Source: Lobulomyces angularis
Taxonomy: Eukaryota > Chytridiomycota > Chytridiomycetes > Lobulomycetales > Lobulomycetaceae
Assembly: GCA_027604685.1 (NCBI GenBank)
Contig: JADHYX010000199.1
Location: 1 to 39,683 of the forward strand
Direction of reading: 5' to 3'
DNA length: 39,683 bases
In this document: in pieces, positions 1-12,920 of the stretch
How positions within the stretch are numbered: position 1 is the first letter of the stretch
How the letters are laid out: every line of letters begins with the position of its first letter
The notes under the pieces: model-generated
What the model was told of the DNA's origin: nothing
The model's input: only the letters and a program-made list of their open reading frames with translations
Database searches by the model: none
Program-made: the position numbers and the translations under genes

Positions 1-86
1 TTTGTACTATTTGTGTTTTTTTTTTTTTATTTTAATTCTCCAGTTTTAATTTTTTCTTAATTTTTTTTTTCTAAATATTTTGTTTT

Positions 87-404
87 TCAATTTACAGGTA
101 TAACAGAAAGATTGTTAGAAGGTCTTCTCTGCAAGGAAGAATTTAAGGATTGCGATGACAAGGTTTTGGAGCGGTAAAGCGGTGGCTGATCATACACCGA
201 TAAGTGTTCATTGTTTGAATGGAATCTGTTGTTGAAGTTGTTAATATAAACCTGCTGCCTCAAAATTGAAATCAGCATTTCCTCTTCTTCCTGTCTCTTT
301 CTTCTTTGCATCTTAAGTTTCTTTTTTTTTTCTCTTTTCTTGATGTACTTTATCGACACTGCCGTTCCAATCGCCAATATAATCATTGTCTCCACTAATG
401 GCAT
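87..404 (-). CDS. Small single-pass membrane protein with PPxY motif
   Basis: A 105-codon ORF with ATG at 404 and TGA at 87-89. I do not recognise the family. Residues about 5-22 are a hydrophobic segment (core ETMIILAIGTAVSIKYI), followed at once by a strongly basic stretch (KKREKKKKLK, then QRRKRQ). This suggests one membrane span with the basic tail in the cytosol. The tail contains DQPPLYRS at about residues 72-79, a PPxY motif of the kind bound by WW domains of Nedd4/Rsp5 ubiquitin ligases, and ends in a Ser/Asn-rich stretch. In fungi, small membrane proteins with PPxY motifs can act as Rsp5 adaptors; that role is inference here. Composition is clearly more complex than the surrounding poly-T DNA, which supports real coding. 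A further exon toward the window edge cannot be excluded. Confidence 0.5.
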   Translation of the reverse strand: MPLVETMIILAIGTAVSIKYIKKREKKKKLKMQRRKRQEEEEMLISILRQQVYINNFNNRFHSNNEHLSVYDQPPLYRSKTLSSQSLNSSLQRRPSNNLSVIPVN

Positions 405-1041
405 TTTTATTTGAATTTTTTAATACTATTTTTTTTATTTTTTTTTTTTATTTTTTTTGCATTTATGTAATAATGTACATAATTTTTGATACAAACTTTT
501 TTTTTTTTTTTTTTTTGGGAAAAAAAAAATAATAATAATAATATTACTTTATATTAATTAACCTCAAATGTAAATAAAAATTATAACTTTAAAAAAACAT
601 TTTATTAACATTCTATTTTACAAAAAAAATTTTTTATTATCTTATTTTCATTAAAGAAAAAAAAGAAAAAAAACAGAAGTAGCATTTTATTTATTATTAT
701 TAAAATTCTTTGGGTTTTAAAGAAAATATATAGAAAACAATAAAAAGAAACTATATTTTTCTAAGAAAGGAAAGTATTTTTTTTTCTTTTTTTTAACCAA
801 TCAACAGAAAAAATAAAAAAAAAAAAAAAAAAATTGAATTAAAAATATATTTTTGAAATATAAAAATAACAAACAATAAAACATAATTAAAAAAAAAGTA
901 ATACATTATCATAATATTTGTAAAATATTAAAAAAAAAAAAAAAAAAATCTTCAATAGTTTTTTTAATTATTTTTTTTTTTTTTTTCCATTTTCTCGTTT
1001 TCTTTCTAATTTTCTCTTGTTTTTTTTATTTTTAAAGAACA
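405..1041. other. Gene-free AT-rich intergenic stretch
   Basis: Shared upstream region between the divergent small membrane protein gene (-) and the first G-alpha gene (+). It is made of long A and T homopolymers (for example near 498-517, 817-834, 930-948 and 968-986) and short AAT runs. I see no coding signal, RNA gene or recognisable regulatory site. Confidence 0.7.
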
Positions 1042-2542
1042 ATGTATTTGGAGGATATTAATGTGAATGAAACTGATTTAATTGATGGTAATGGAATAAA
1101 CTTGACAGTGGAGTTGGAGTCCTCACCAAAGTATGTTAAAAAAAGTATATCAAAATAAATAAAAAATGCATTGAAAAAAAAAAAAAGATTACTCAAAAAA
1201 ATTTACTGAATCATATTTATTTTCAGAAAAGCTAGAGAACGAAACAGCACCATCGAAAGACAGCTAAGAAAAGAAAAGAGGGAGGCAGAAATGAAAGATA
1301 TAAAGAAAGTGTTGATATTGGGAGCGGGAGATTCAGGAAAATCAACGTTGGTACGTCAGATTCGCTTAACGAATGCAGTGCCATTTACTGGTGAAGAAAA
1401 GAATTTTTTTAAAAAAGTCATTTGGGGAAATATTCTTTTGTCGATGAAAAATTTGGTTATTGGGTCTGAATTTTTAGGAATCAATATCAACTCGTGGGAT
1501 TTTTTGGTTAAACAAAAAAAATTAAAATTAAAATAAAAAATTGTACAATCTTTAAAGGATTTTTTTTTTTATTCCTGCAGAACGACGCTATATTGATCAA
1601 AGAATATGTATATGACAAAAAGTTAATGAAAATAGAAGATGAGGTTTGCAACGCTTTAAGACGATTGTGGGATGATCCTAACATCAAAGTTTGTTTTGAG
1701 CGAAGAAATGAGATCAAGAATTTACATATTCAAGATACTTCAGTTAATTATTTTAATGACCTCAACAGAATTTTGGATTGCAACTATGAGCCAACTGATC
1801 AAGGTAAATACTTAGAAGTTGTTCATACACTAATATTTGGAAAAAAAAAAATATTGTGGAAAAATTAGATATAGTGTTGTCAAGGAGAGCTACCCTCAAT
1901 ATTACTGAAACTTCAGTCAGCATTAAACTTGGCAACTTTAAGTTTTTTGATGTAGGTGGTCAAAAGCATCTCCGTAACTTCTGGGCGCCATACTTTGATG
2001 AAGTGAATGCAATTATCTTTGTTGCTGCACTCTCAAGTTTTAATGAAGTAATGGAGGAAGATGATTCTACCAACAGAATGGTCGACTGTATATCCCTTTT
2101 TAAAGCCATTGTCAACAATCCCCTGTTGACTAAAGCACCCATAATATTATTTTTTAACAAAAACGATCTCTTTAAAGAAAAATTAAAAACCTATAAACTT
2201 GTGAATTATTTTAGCGATTATAAAGGTATTTTTAATTTATTTTTAATTTATTTTTTTTTTTTTACACAATTTTTTTATCATAGAACAGCAAACTGAAAAG
2301 TCAGCCGTTTCTTTTTTTACAAACAAATTTAAAGAAACTACGAATAGAAACTTATCTCATATCCACCTTACCACTGGTACTGACAATAAATTAATGAAGA
2401 AAATTATTGGTTCTGTATTGTATGTCATAAATAAAAATATATACTTTTTTAATTTTTATTTTATTTTTATTTTTTATTTTTTTTGTTTCCTATTATTTTT
2501 AGGGAAATAATTATGCGAGGAAGGATAGAAGCAGTTTTGTGA
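1042..2542 (+). CDS. G-protein alpha subunit, paralog 1
   Basis: Six exons: 1042-1130, 1227-1506, 1581-1803, 1869-2225, 2284-2419, 2503-2542; 374 aa. GTP-binding transducer of receptor signals, normally at the inner plasma membrane. Visible: P-loop GAGDSGKST (62-70), switch I arginine in LSRRAT (R203, T206), switch II DVGGQ (225-229, catalytic Gln kept), NKND (294-297) and a G5 box TTGTD (346-350). The helical-domain part lies between the P-loop and switch I. Oddities: the protein starts MYLEDINVN, with no Gly2 for myristoylation, so about 30 residues precede the usual alpha-N helix. Switch II reads QKHLRNFW instead of the usual QRSERKKW. P-loop Glu is Asp. The C-terminal tail (GRIEAVL) differs from both paralogs. 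Exon phases all close correctly. The family call is firm; receptor and Gbeta-gamma coupling are unknown. Confidence 0.93.
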
Positions 2543-2674
2543 AAAAAAATTAAATATTAAATTAGAAAAAAAAAAAATTTTTTTTAAAGATATACCAAAA
2601 AAAAATAGTTAGAAAAGTTTAAATTCCTTCTATAGTGTTCAAGTTAATATATTTTCCTTTTTTCTGTATTGAGA

Positions 2675-2722
<48 letters not shown>

Positions 2723-3200
2723 CTTCTAAATCTGTTTTATGTGAGAAAATTATTTTGCAATTTTTTAATGTAACTGATATGTGTAAAATTTTAGATGTGT
2801 TTATTTTTTAAACCTTTCTATTGTATGAATTTTTTATAAATGAATTACTTTATTTTTTGATGAGGTAACGTTTCAAAAATATATAATTGTGTATAAAGAA
2901 ATTTTTTTTGAAAATAAATGCCTGACGGCTGTTGAAAAAAGTGTAATCTAAATAATCTAGGTTAGACATTTATCAAAAAAAAAAGTAGCCAAGAGAATTA
3001 TATTTTCTTTTTAATTAAAAAAAAAAAAAAAAAAAAACTTGCAATTGATCCATAAAATCAAAAAAAATTCAGTATATATATATATAAATTTACAATAAAA
3101 ACTATTGTAAATTTAAATTTAAATCTTTCTTTTTTTTTTCTCTTTTTATTATAAATTTGAATTAAAAAAATTCACATTAGATTCTTTTTTTTTCCTTTCT
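2543..3200. other. Intergenic region between convergent G-alpha genes
   Basis: Holds the 3' ends of paralogs 1 and 2. It is A/T homopolymer-rich, with a trinucleotide microsatellite (2675-2722), a short TA run near 3074-3086 and poly-A near 3018-3037. No gene seen. Confidence 0.7.
2675..2722. repeat. (AAT)n microsatellite, about 16 units
   Basis: Uninterrupted AAT/TAA trinucleotide repeat just downstream of the first G-alpha stop codon, in the convergent intergenic region. Probably neutral and length-variable. Confidence 0.95.
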
Positions 3201-4835
3201 TTAAGAAGAAAGTCCTGAATGTTCCAAATACGCTCTGGTTAAAATATCGCTATTAAAATAGACAGTTAGATAATAAATAATACAATTTGATAAATAACTT
3301 TTAGGTTTTTTGTTGAAAAAAAAAATAACTTACAAAACATTTCTATTTATCTTTGCCATTAACTTAGAATCTGTTCCAGTAGTGTAGTGAATATAATTTA
3401 ATTCTCTTGGTGTGCTATCCTTGAACTTTTTAGTAAAAAAGTTGACGACTGCCTTTTCACTTTGTGGGTCTTATGAAACGATTTTAGAAAATAGAAAGAT
3501 AAATATTTTTAGTAAAAATTGATACCTTTAAATTCAGGAAAGAAATCTTGAACTTTGACAATTTTAATTTTTTCCAAGAGTAAATCAATTTTATTTAAAA
3601 ATAATATTATAGGGCATTTAACTAGCAATGTGTTATTGGATATCGACTTAAACAGCTCCAAACTGTCAACCATTCTGTTCAAGCTGTCTTCTTCTTGCAT
3701 AACTTGATTGAAACTTGACAGTGCTGCTACAAACAATATAGCGTGCGAATCTTCAAAATATGGTACCTGGTTTTACAAAAAAAAAAAAAAAAAAAAATAT
3801 ATATGTAAGTTTTTTTTTGATTAAATCACAAATTTTTAAAAAGTTTTTCTACCCAAAAAGATCTTAAATGTTTTTGCCCTCCAACATCATAAAATTTTAA
3901 GAGTCCACTAGTTGAGCTGATTGTTGTCTCAGTAATGTTGAAAGTTGCCTTTCTACAAAGAATGATATCTAGAAAGAATAATAGTATTAATAAAAATCTA
4001 CTCCTCAATCTTTTTTTGTTTATTTGTTCCGTTTTTTTTTTTTAGAAAAATCAAAACCTTGATCTGTTGGTGCATATTTCTTGTCAAAAATTCTTTCCAA
4101 ATCGTTAAAAAAATGAATGGAAGTATCTTGGATCAATGCTTCAGGTATCTCAATTCTTCTTCGATAGCATTCTTTTAAGCTTTCATCTTTCCAGAGCCTC
4201 TTTATTGCAGTGCAAATTTCTTCTTCTACAAGGTCTTTTTTTTTTTCGAACTGATATTCTTTTATCAAGATGGCATCATTCTACCAATATAATTTTCGTA
4301 AGTCAAATTTTTTTTATTTTGTTGTTAAACTTTTACCAAAAAGTCCCAAGATTTTATACCAATGCCAAGTTTCTCAGCACCAATAACTAAAGCTTTAGTA
4401 GAACAACATATATTTTCCCAAATTATCTTTTTAAAAAAATCTTTTTCCTCTCCAGTGAAAGCAGCAGAATTGCTCAACCGAATTTGTCTAATGATTGTTG
4501 ATTTGCCTGAATCGGCTGATCCTAGTATTAATATCTTCCTAATTTCTTTTCCATAAAGCTCTTTTTTGTCTAATTTTAATTGCTTATTTATTGAAGTACT
4601 TCTTTGCTTTGCTTTTCTATAAAAAAATAAAAAAAAATTAAAAATATATTTAGTTTTTTTAACTTCAATTTTTAAATTAAATATATTATGAAAAAGTAAA
4701 TGTAACTTTTAAAATTATATTTTTTGATTAATTCTGCGCCATATACCTTGGCGTAAGAGGTAATGTTTGTGTCAACACAATGCCATCGGTATCTTCTAAA
4801 GTTGTTGCATTAACATCTATATCATCCATGTACAT
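3201..4835 (-). CDS. G-protein alpha subunit, paralog 2
   Basis: Seven exons on the complement: 4747-4835, 4337-4616, 4058-4280, 3853-3968, 3526-3766, 3334-3469, 3201-3249; 377 aa. Same family and role as paralog 1. Start MYMDDIDVN again lacks Gly2. P-loop is GSADSGKST, where the usual third-position Gly is Ala; GKST is intact. Switch I LCRKAT, switch II DVGGQKHLRSFW, NKID and TTGTD are all present. The C-terminus ends in LEHSGLSS, closest to the usual GL ending but with extra residues. Exons of 89, 280, 223 and 136 nt match paralog 1 exactly. An additional intron (3767-3852) splits switch II from the following strand, between FW and VPYF; paralogs 1 and 3 lack it. The exon 3 donor (GTTTTG) is weak but phase-consistent. 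Confidence 0.92.
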
Positions 4836-5260
4836 CTTCCTATTTGCAAAGGTTTATTACAGTTCTACTTATTACACTCCTAAAAGATAAAAAATATTTT
4901 ATTTTTTTTTTTTTTTTTTAATAATTTGTGATTGGATAAAAAAATAGTTTGGAAATATTTTTATTGACCAAAAACATGTTTCTCTAATACACTCAACTTA
5001 GTCAAATATCCGGAGCGAAAAAAAAATACAAAAAATTTGGTGAATTTTCGTATCAAAATGATATTTTTAAAAACAATATTTTTGTTAAAGTTAGGAACAA
5101 GGAGAGGAATCCAAAAAAAAAAAATAAAAAAAAATAATAATAAAAAAATTAATTATAGTTTAACAATACAGCTAATTGCTCATTTCTAAAATAAGTTAGT
5201 AGTAATACAACTCCTACATACGTTAAGAAAAATTTTTTTTTTATTAAAAAAAAATTGTGT
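4836..5260. other. Intergenic region between G-alpha paralogs 2 and 3
   Basis: Upstream of paralog 2 and downstream of paralog 3, which lie in tandem on the minus strand. AT-rich with poly-T and poly-A runs; no gene or clear element seen. Confidence 0.65.
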
Positions 5261-6701
5261 TTATATAGAATCTTCCACTAATCCACTAGCCTTCAGACTT
5301 AACTTTGTAATTATTGTTCTAAACAAAAAACACAAAAAAGATTTTTTTTTTATTAATTTACTAAAAAATAACTTACAAAACGGTGCCAATTATTTTTTTC
5401 ATTAATTTTGAGTCAGTACCTGTTGTCAAATGAATATACTTCAGTTGGCGAGTTGTGGTTCCTTTAAATTTTTCTATAAAAAAATTTGCAGCACTTTTTT
5501 CACTTTGAGGTGCTAAATAGAAAAATAGTAAAAATTTTTTTTAATAAAAAATAAAAAAAAAAACCTTTGAAATCTTCAAAATAATCTGATACGTTAGTTA
5601 ATTTTAATTTCTCCTTAAACAGATCAACTTTATTTAGAAATAGGACTATAGTGATATTTTGCAATGAAGGGTTATTCACAATAATATTAAAAAGAGAAAT
5701 GCAGTCAACCATTCTATTTGTGCCTTCCTCTTCCGCCATATTTTGATCAAAACAAGATAAAGCGGCTATGAATAGTATTGCATGAGAATCTTCAAAATAC
5801 GGGACCCAGAAGTTTCTTAAATGTTTTTGCCCTCCAACATCATAAAATTTAATAGTTCCTAATTTTGGAACTGCCAAAACAGTTTCCGTTATATTACAAG
5901 TTTGTCTTCGACATAAAACAATATCTTCAATTCAAATTAAGTGTTCAAATTAGTTGAATTTATTTTTTTAATTGCGTCGTATACCTTGATCGGTTGGTAT
6001 ATAATTAACATCGAGAATTCTGTCTAACTCATTAAAAAAGTTAATGGCAGTATCTTGTATATGCATATTTTTTAATTCGCTTTTTCTCTTAAATGTTTCT
6101 TTTATATCATGATCCTCCCACAGACTAGTCATGACACGAACAACGTTTGGATCGAAACTCTTCTTTTTTTTGTCAAAGATAAAAGTTTTCATGAATAAAG
6201 CATTTTCCTCATAAAAAGAAAAAAAAAAAAAATTTAATTGGGTAAAATATAATTAGCTAATAAACTATACTTGGTATTCCTGAGATTTTTCAGTAAATCC
6301 TAACATTTCAGCGCACCGTAACAAATCCTTTAATGACACATAAACGTTTTCCCAGATTATTTTCTTAAAGTATTCCTTTTCCTCACCAGTAAATAACACA
6401 GAATTGCAAAGCCTAATTTGCCGAACTACAGTGCTTTTTCCGGAATCGCCTGTTCCCAAAATTAAAACTTTACATGCGTTATTCAATGACATTAATTTTT
6501 TTTCTTTTTTTAATTGCTTTTCAATCTCTTTTGTTCTCTTTTTAGCTTTTCTATTTATTTTAAGATTAGATTGTGTGGATCTCGTTAATTTTTTTTTTTT
6601 TTTTTTTTTTACTTGGGATATTGAGGTAATTCTACTTGTAGATTTATACCATTGTCATCCTCCAAGTTTGTCACATTCACTTCAATTTCCTCCATATACA
6701 T
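5261..6701 (-). CDS. G-protein alpha subunit, paralog 3
   Basis: Six exons on the complement: 6613-6701, 6271-6550, 5985-6207, 5565-5924, 5377-5512, 5261-5318; 381 aa. Start MYMEEIEVN, no Gly2. P-loop GTGDSGKST, switch I LCRRQT, DVGGQKHLRNFW, NKVD and TTGTD are visible, so GTP binding and the catalytic Arg and Gln look intact. Exon lengths 89, 280, 223 and 136 nt equal those of the other two copies. The central exon is 360 nt, one codon longer than in paralog 1. It keeps FW-VPYF uninterrupted where paralog 2 has an intron. The C-terminus extends past the usual Gly-Leu (GLVEDSI). It sits in tandem with paralog 2, consistent with local duplication. Receptor or effector partners cannot be inferred. 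Confidence 0.93.
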
Positions 6702-11372: not shown

Positions 11373-12920
11373 CTAAGAAATATTCGTTAAAATTTCAACA
11401 ACCTTTGAATGATTATTAAATTTCGCCGCATCAAGAGCAGTTGTACCATCATCAGCTTTAGCATCAATTTTTACTCTATTCTCTTCCGTGTTTAAACTAA
11501 TAAAGAAATTCACAACATCTGTCTGGCCAAAGCTAGAAGCTACGTAAAAAGCACTATAACCTCCACTCATTCTTAAATTCAAATCGGCTCCATACTCTAC
11601 CAGAATCTTAACAATGCTTAACCATCCTAATTGAGCTGCGATTATCAGAGGAGTTGATTTATCATGAATTGGTATATTTATGTTTAACCTTTGCCTTTTC
11701 ATCTCAGATTCTGGTTGGTTTAAAGTATCTAACAATGCTTTAACAATTTCAAAATTATTATTTTGTGATGCAACGTATAGTGGTGAAGATCCATCTTTTT
11801 TTGAGAAGTTCAAATCCGTTCTTGGGTGTTGCATCAAAAGTATCGAAATCTCTTTGTGTCCTCTTGAACAACTGGTATAAAGAGGCTATTTTTTTTTATG
11901 GTAAGAACTAATTCAATTTTTTTTTTTTTTTTTTTTTTTTTTACAGAACAATCTAAAAATGAGATGTTAGGATCTGCACCATTCTTTAAAAGTAAATCAA
12001 CCACTTCAATATAACCCTAACAAAAAAAATTAAATTAAGAAAAACAGTAATATATATTTTTTTTGAACTTTTTGAGCAGCATTGTACAAAGGACTAGTAA
12101 TGCCACAAAATTTCTTGTCAGGATCTGCACCGTTCTTTAGCAGAAATTCAACAATTCTAGGAAAATTGCAGTTGGAAGATATGAATAATGGAGTAGCATG
12201 GTCTTTTCCAGCTAAATTAATATCTGCTCCATTTTTAATTAAAATTTCTAAACTTTCAAAACAAGCGTTTTCTGCTGCAATATAACTAGAAAATATATTT
12301 ATATATTTATTTTATAAATTTTTAAATTATAGATTGTTTTTTTTTTTTTTTAAATTTTTAATTTTTTTTTTTTTTTTTTGTAGTTTCATTTTTATTTTTA
12401 TTTTTTACTGGAATGGATATTTTCTAAAGCATTTAATTTAATAAAATCCTTTTCAGTAGGTTTTGGAATAATTCCTCTATCTTTTGGTAGCGGGTCCCTT
12501 AAAATTGTTTTGTCACATTGAAAAACTTCAGCTGAAAAAAAATTAGAGTTTTGTTTTTATTTTTTTTATTTTAATTTTTATAACATATATAATTTTTAGT
12601 TATTTCTTTTTTTTTTTTTTTTTTTAAATACCAGGAATTAATCTTACATTTCCATCACCTTTTCTGAGAAATTCTTGAGGTGGGTTTGGCTGGATGTTTA
12701 CTTTTCCCATCGACGCAGCCAATTTCTTTCCTTTTTTTTCCTCTGCTTTGACTTCGTAAGCATGGACTGACTTGTATCTGGCTGCTTTTTCTTCTTTCCT
12801 TAATTCAATTGGAATTAGTTTGTGTACAGATTCCTCAAATGGATCTGGTGGAACTGGGTTGACGTAAAATTTGTTACTGTCTTGAATTTCTGCTGCTGCT
12901 GACAATACTTTTGGATACAT
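11373..12920 (-). CDS. Ankyrin-repeat protein with enkurin-like N-terminus
   Basis: Five exons on the complement: 12632-12920, 12409-12531, 12069-12274, 11945-12016, 11373-11885; 400 aa. Residues from about 140 to the end form about seven ankyrin repeats, with repeated cores such as LLLKNGADPN, HKEISILL, DGSSPLYVASQNN, STPLIIAAQLG and GTTALDAAKFNN, so a protein-binding scaffold is expected. The first about 136 residues resemble enkurin, a calmodulin-binding axonemal protein: VHKLIP, ARYKSV, a lysine-rich stretch, PPQEFLRKG and KDFIKLNALENI align in the same order as in enkurin. The canonical C-terminal enkurin domain is absent and ankyrin repeats follow instead. The acceptor of exon 3 is ambiguous (12274 or 12271). 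A flagellar role is inference. It converges on the trehalose gene. Confidence 0.8.

Follow-up and report, generated by a model that had tools for sequence, protein, structure and literature searches.

The window analyzed here, a contig of 39,683 nucleotides (nt), carries three clustered genes for G-protein alpha subunits (G-alpha; genes A, B, and C) whose proteins share an N-terminal module of about 30 residues and lack the myristoylation glycine at position 2 (Gly2). With a confidence little above even, we read this module as a docking peptide on a putative protein partner, replacing placement by a lipid. The tip before the alpha-N helix, where canonical G-alpha carries its lipid sites, would have been replaced by the module through exchange of the first exon. 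The module would dock on a scaffold or receptor protein, thereby placing the G-alpha in the cell; the docked protein would need no lipid anchor of its own, and switching would stay with the G domain. Judged from sequence, chytrids have an expanded, divergent family of G-alphas, within which A, B, and C fall in a Lobulomycetales clade. Protein A was identical to the public protein P0001 (hypothetical protein HK099_006563, labelled Clydaea vesicula; order Lobulomycetales, phylum Chytridiomycota), and the window is treated as a contig of that species, a label that all counts for its own genome follow.

The earlier note on this DNA had described three clustered G-alpha genes with a shared N-terminal motif in a separate 89-nt exon, and both the spliced and the public gene models bore this out (Table 1). 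Gene A lies on the forward strand and genes B and C on the reverse strand, and the spliced models were open to the first stop. Each first exon was exactly 89 nt long, ran up to a phase-2 GTA donor, and encoded MY(L/M)(E/D)(D/E)I.VN...L.D..GI.L...L. The note's argument that such conservation implies selection was supported by the codon-position pattern: identity among the three exons was 38–45% at third positions and 59–76% at first and second positions, with 52–62% for the protein, so that the protein is what is conserved. The 90 nt upstream of the ATG were 31–38% identical (ungapped), and conservation stopped at the ATG. A search for ATGGG upstream of exon 2 yielded none for A (window 1–1226) or B (5600–4617), farther upstream not having been searched; two were present for C (7700–6551), and one of these lies in an open stretch that could serve as an exon of the correct phase, at a distance of 781 nt from exon 2. 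The introns following exon 1 are 62–130 nt long here.

The module was 29–31 residues long with a net charge of −4 to −8 in all nine copies of the own genome. No cysteine occurred in these first 29–31 residues in any of the nine genes, C87 being counted from its second in-frame methionine (a start at the farther one would add a cysteine). AlphaFold gave a predicted local distance difference test score (pLDDT) below 50 for residues 1–22 of A and 1–23 of P0004, a public protein labelled Lobulomyces angularis, and alpha-N began at residue 29 in both. Mean pairwise identity (45 pairs) was 50% for the module (48% in its own alignment), 31% for alpha-N, and 42% for everything after the module; by block it was 65% for the P-loop, 36% for the helical domain, 46% for the switches, and 43% for the last part. 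A segment that is predicted to be unfolded and is more conserved than the remainder has the pattern of a binding peptide. The conserved tyrosine was kept while the residues before it varied (MY, MHTY, MYSY, MHAY, MQKY), indicating that an internal motif, and not the terminus, is conserved. Within the motif, V8, N9, L13, and G18 were invariant. Among the roles that the note suggested (membrane targeting, a partner protein, or a location such as the flagellum), an acidic, cysteine-free, unfolded segment would favor a protein partner over direct binding to the membrane. A calcium-binding DxDxN loop was considered and rejected by eye, as N, E, or Q can stand at the acidic positions and the final glutamate is missing.

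A family search of the own genome (20.76 Mb, 533 contigs; genes are labelled by contig number, the window being C199) gave 64 exon-level G-alpha matches. These were modelled as 23 near-complete genes and three fragments near contig ends (C476, C448, and C125), which are outside the gene counts. Two more places, C250 and C204, were dropped as small-GTPase-like by eye (model scores of 100 and 86). The module was present in 9 of the 23 genes (A, B, C, C87, C305a, C305b, C262, C19, and C252); the three copies originally noticed were thus real, but the count was too low, with at least nine in this genome. None of the nine starts with MG, as had been claimed for the module proteins. The module also occurred in P0032, a Clydaea fragment, and in P0004; presence in a related genome had been set beforehand as a test, and P0004 carries the label of a second genus. 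G-alpha genes were often clustered, with three in the window, three neighbors on C17, two plus two on C176, and two on C305.

The extent of the module was assessed by a leave-one-out profile test in which each of 10 copies was held out in turn, against 179 G-alphas, 156 of them public and 23 from the own genome. All 10 held-out copies were found (35.2–51.1 bits, E-values from 8.8e-11 to 9.1e-16), and P0032, which was never used in training, scored 41.1–44.5 bits. The best sequence outside the module set was C176b (9.0–11.1 bits, E-values of 0.003–0.013). In C176a, C176b, and C222, no more than a remnant resembling GINL or SINL precedes alpha-N; for C176a and C222 this status was assigned by eye with non-significant profile scores, and only C176b came near significance. 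By profile, the module was absent from all 151 retrieved proteins with a label other than Clydaea or Lobulomyces or with none, some of them fragments (best score 3.6 bits). The retrieved lists covered the best 120 of 255 and the best 120 of 182 hits and included fragments and many entries without an organism name. The module as a mobile domain on other proteins was rejected, since a whole-genome query with it returned eight places, all in G-alpha genes (C19, whose module is split by an intron, was missed). A query with residues 1–45 against a large protein set was uninformative: it gave seven candidates, and neither these nor P0001 itself was scored.

The intron between tip and alpha-N was in phase 2 in all 15 genes examined. 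The 23-nt exon 1 of C17b and C17c encodes MGLTEEE(K) or MGIKEDE(R) and ends at this phase-2 intron, which is also present in C17a and C176c, whose short exons lack Gly2, and in C222, C176a, and C176b. C252, outside the 15, had no intron at this boundary. The ATG-to-donor exon recurred in six module genes; C305a and C19 had one extra intron, and the start of C252 lay across an intron. Because the first exon holds only the tip before alpha-N, it could be exchanged without disturbing the GTPase, and we infer that it was.

A tree of 63 proteins was built from the P-loop onward, leaving out the N-terminal trait. It placed 11 module proteins, four remnant proteins, and Lobulomyces P0124, which has no module, in one Lobulomycetales clade of 16 rows, with a support of 97 by the Shimodaira–Hasegawa-like approximate likelihood ratio test (SH-aLRT) in a quick tree and 100/98 (bootstrap/SH-aLRT) in a careful one. 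Its sister was C427, without a module (98/97). Three changes of the module label were needed on the tree, which allows, without proving it, one gain followed by two losses. C305a paired with P0004 (99/93), and the module would therefore be older than their split if the Lobulomyces label is right.

Missing Gly2 had been taken as a trait of the module. The module does lack it, but so do 18 of the 23 near-complete G-alphas, with or without module: only five begin with MG, namely C17b, C17c, and the three canonical genes, whose tips read MGCC. The premise that classical G-alpha starts with MGxxx was itself too simple, as animal Gq (P0026, MACC...) has no Gly2. A lost myristoylation site consequently does not define the module clade. 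In the quick tree, a clade of 41 rows included four with MG, 35 without it or without a start of their own (P0032, P0006, and the second half of P0122), and two unreadable. The careful tree had a clade of 52 rows (100/99; 10 with MG, 38 without, and four unreadable), did not resolve the order of the divergent groups, and did not recover the clade of 41; we therefore make no claim that Gly2 was lost only once.

The remainder of the proteins is a recognizable G-alpha. Matches to PF00503 exceeded the Pfam cut-off in exons of A, B, and C. The AlphaFold model (mean pLDDT 88.8) matched solved G-alphas, with Foldseek template modelling scores (TM-scores) against Gi/Gq structures of up to 0.93 by target. 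The catalytic arginine was kept in eight of nine module genes (lysine in C262) and the catalytic glutamine in all nine, A, B, and C having both; P0004 has histidine in place of the glutamine. The C-terminal alpha-5 tails, for which an end near ..GL is the pattern of receptor coupling, read HSGLSS in B, ASGLVEDSI in C, and RGRIEAVL in A.

Switch II and the G5 loop departed from the canonical pattern. Lys211 (Go numbering) was changed in 9/9 module genes and 20/20 divergent genes of the own genome, and Lys210 in 8/9 and 18/20, respectively; all three canonical genes kept both. These two residues, which we take to be G-beta contacts, hint at an altered G-beta contact in nearly all divergent G-alphas here. 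The G5 loop of A, B, and C was TTGT, not TCAT. Its alanine was replaced by Gly, Asn, or Ser in 8/9 module genes and changed in 10/11 other divergent genes (18/20 together); it was kept in C149 and C195, and C219 was unreadable there. Excerpts of one study report that A366S in Gs drastically accelerates release of guanosine diphosphate (GDP) and that the structure of the equivalent Gi1 A326S shows a displaced base with lower GDP affinity (PMC4266920). By analogy with these reports, the replaced alanine leads us to predict fast, receptor-independent GDP release in most of the divergent family and not specifically in module proteins. The change is rather functional variation than a ground for exclusion from the PF00503 family. 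The replacement extended across window 1042–6701 and loci L041–L052; this may be a receptor-independent family of G-alphas that reaches beyond the module.

Several results weigh against a docking peptide. The P-loop block exceeds the module in identity. The unfolded state comes from a lone-chain prediction, with which folding on its own G domain or on G-beta-gamma is still compatible. Moreover, C176a, C176b, C222, and P0124 have lost the module or keep a weak remnant while the genes look intact, and it is thus dispensable in the clade.

The main rival, which we consider rather unlikely, is a receptor-selectivity tag like the N-terminus of G-alpha-q: the module would select receptors, perhaps of class C, and G-beta-gamma would give membrane attachment. 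The own genome offers candidates: about 17 places account for 18 class C (7tm_3) receptor matches over the cut-off, and there are two places for G-beta. A paper of 1997, going by its title, reportedly found that the N-terminal extension of G-alpha-q constrains receptor coupling. In Go/Gq chimeras, the N-terminus of G-alpha was a key determinant of which receptors are selectively bound and activated (PMC8160216), although the hinge alone sufficed in part, which weakens the analogy. The module also differs little among the nine paralogs, although divergence would be expected of a selectivity tag, and the switch II residues facing G-beta are changed.

An ancestral leftover under weak constraint, or one that shields the N-terminus without a specific partner, is improbable. 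It would fit the confinement of all copies to one clade, in which related genes lost the module or keep a weak remnant. It fits poorly with a module more conserved than the adjacent alpha-N and with third codon positions that drifted while the protein did not. More improbable still is placement through another N-terminal modification, such as acetylation of the methionine read by a membrane protein. The small GTPase Arl3 is placed in this way, by N-terminal acetylation without myristate, and several module copies start with MY followed by a hydrophobic residue; however, the residues from methionine to tyrosine differ in C87, C305b, C262, C19, and C252, so the terminus is not conserved. Hardly any weight is left for a wrong start, with an unseen upstream exon supplying MG and a lipid site: an AG just upstream of the ATGs would permit a 5′ intron and C has its one distant MG candidate, but the searched stretches of A and B contained no ATGGG, the recurrent ATG-to-donor exon is conserved only up to the ATG, and the same method does see the MGCC starts of canonical paralogs.

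The source labels bear on how the module is dated. Public proteins labelled Lobulomyces angularis matched genes of the own genome (P0003 is gene C from residue 3, and the first 143 residues of P0123 are the same as in C262), indicating that two public assemblies share sequence, possibly by contamination or mislabelling. P0004 was absent from the own genome, where its best exon match had 61% identity, and would count as evidence from a second organism if, given this caveat, its label holds. Gene models were automatic: C17a has one alanine too many, and C262 and C176d perhaps miss short pieces. Joining by eye was needed for the tips of C17a–c, C176a–d, C222, C419, and C427 and for the start of C252 (MEIYH), which lies across an intron; the C219 gene meets a run of undetermined bases (2626 N in the locus).

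Table 1. Exon coordinates of the three G-alpha genes in the window.
Feature	Positions	Strand	Content
Gene A exon 1	1042..1130	+	ATG 1042; module MYLEDINVNETDLIDGNGINLTVELESSP(K), 89 nt, phase 2; identical to public P0001
Gene A exons 2–6	1227–1506 (alpha-N, P-loop), 1581–1803, 1869–2225 (switches), 2284–2419, 2503–2542 (with stop)	+	
Gene B exon 1	4747..4835	-	ATG 4835; module MYMDDIDVNATTLEDTDGIVLTQTLPLTP(R), 89 nt, phase 2; start of public P0002 agrees
Gene B exons 2–7	4616–4337, 4280–4058, 3968–3853, 3766–3526, 3469–3334, 3249–3201	-	last exon ..YLEHSGLSS and stop
Gene C exon 1	6613..6701	-	ATG 6701; module MYMEEIEVNVTNLEDDNGINLQVELPQYP(K), 89 nt, phase 2; start of public P0003 is at Met3
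Gene C exons 2–6	6550–6271, 6207–5985, 5924–5565, 5512–5377, 5318–5261	-	C-terminus ..SLKASGLVEDSI and stop

Faults in public gene models were flagged at window 5240–5330, 3190–3345, and 6695–6701. P0002 is identical to B over 361 residues and then ends in the last intron, losing ..YLEHSGLSS (3190–3345); P0003 is identical to C from residue 3, its initial MY having been missed (6695–6701). The intron of gene C before 6207 ends in GAG. Pfam exon matches to neighboring genes (window 8000–38240) comprised glycosyltransferase 20, trehalose-phosphatase, Glu/Gln-tRNA synthetase, a SIS-domain protein, a protein kinase, PTPA, glycosyltransferase 4, and a gamma-tubulin complex component, with a weak ZIP transporter match below the cut-off. 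At 11373–12311, ankyrin-like repeats were seen, by eye only, and Rfam gave no match on the window.

The own genome combined 23 near-complete G-alpha genes with two G-beta places over the cut-off, two RGS (regulator of G-protein signaling) places, and one Ric8 place. A search for G-gamma gave no match and was uninformative, as its controls likewise gave none. The class C receptors are possible partners of the expanded G-alphas. According to the portions of the literature consulted, Chytridiomycota are enriched in glutamate-class receptors and G-alpha and receptor numbers show no clear relation across fungi (PMC12842992); fungi usually have two or three G-alphas (PMC2954821) and Mucor circinelloides has 12 (PMC6936849). 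We found no account of the module or of Lobulomycetales G-alphas in the parts of the open-licence literature covered, which is weak evidence of absence. The G-alpha N-terminal tip is a meeting point of lipid anchoring, G-beta-gamma binding, and receptor choice, and its replacement by a conserved, predictedly unfolded peptide would be a natural experiment on G-alpha placement without a lipid of its own. A tentative possibility is that one chytrid order has a G-alpha subfamily outside the classical heterotrimer cycle, with no lipid anchor, an altered switch II, receptor-free GDP release, and a captured docking exon. With 23 near-complete G-alphas and numerous class C receptors encoded in the 20.8 Mb of this genome, zoosporic fungi are a place to seek such non-classical G-protein cycles.

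Compared with known systems, the module proteins have the fold, G motifs, and alpha-N in common with canonical Gi/o-type and fungal G-alphas (C149, C195, and C219, and the amphioxus Go-like P0126). They differ in the tip, which is MGCC there and the module here, and in Lys210, Lys211, and the TCAT alanine, which are mostly changed. Animal Gq (P0026) likewise has no Gly2, and in vertebrates it has a functional N-terminal extension. Unlike the module, it keeps cysteines at the tip, which are palmitoylated in Gq, and the two showed no sequence similarity by profile. Other divergent chytrid G-alphas (for example Obelidium P0010, Fimicolochytrium P0011, and C427) fall in the same clade of 52 rows and mostly have no MG. 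Without the module, they have switch II and the G5 loop changed much as in the module genes, while their tips are unlike it.

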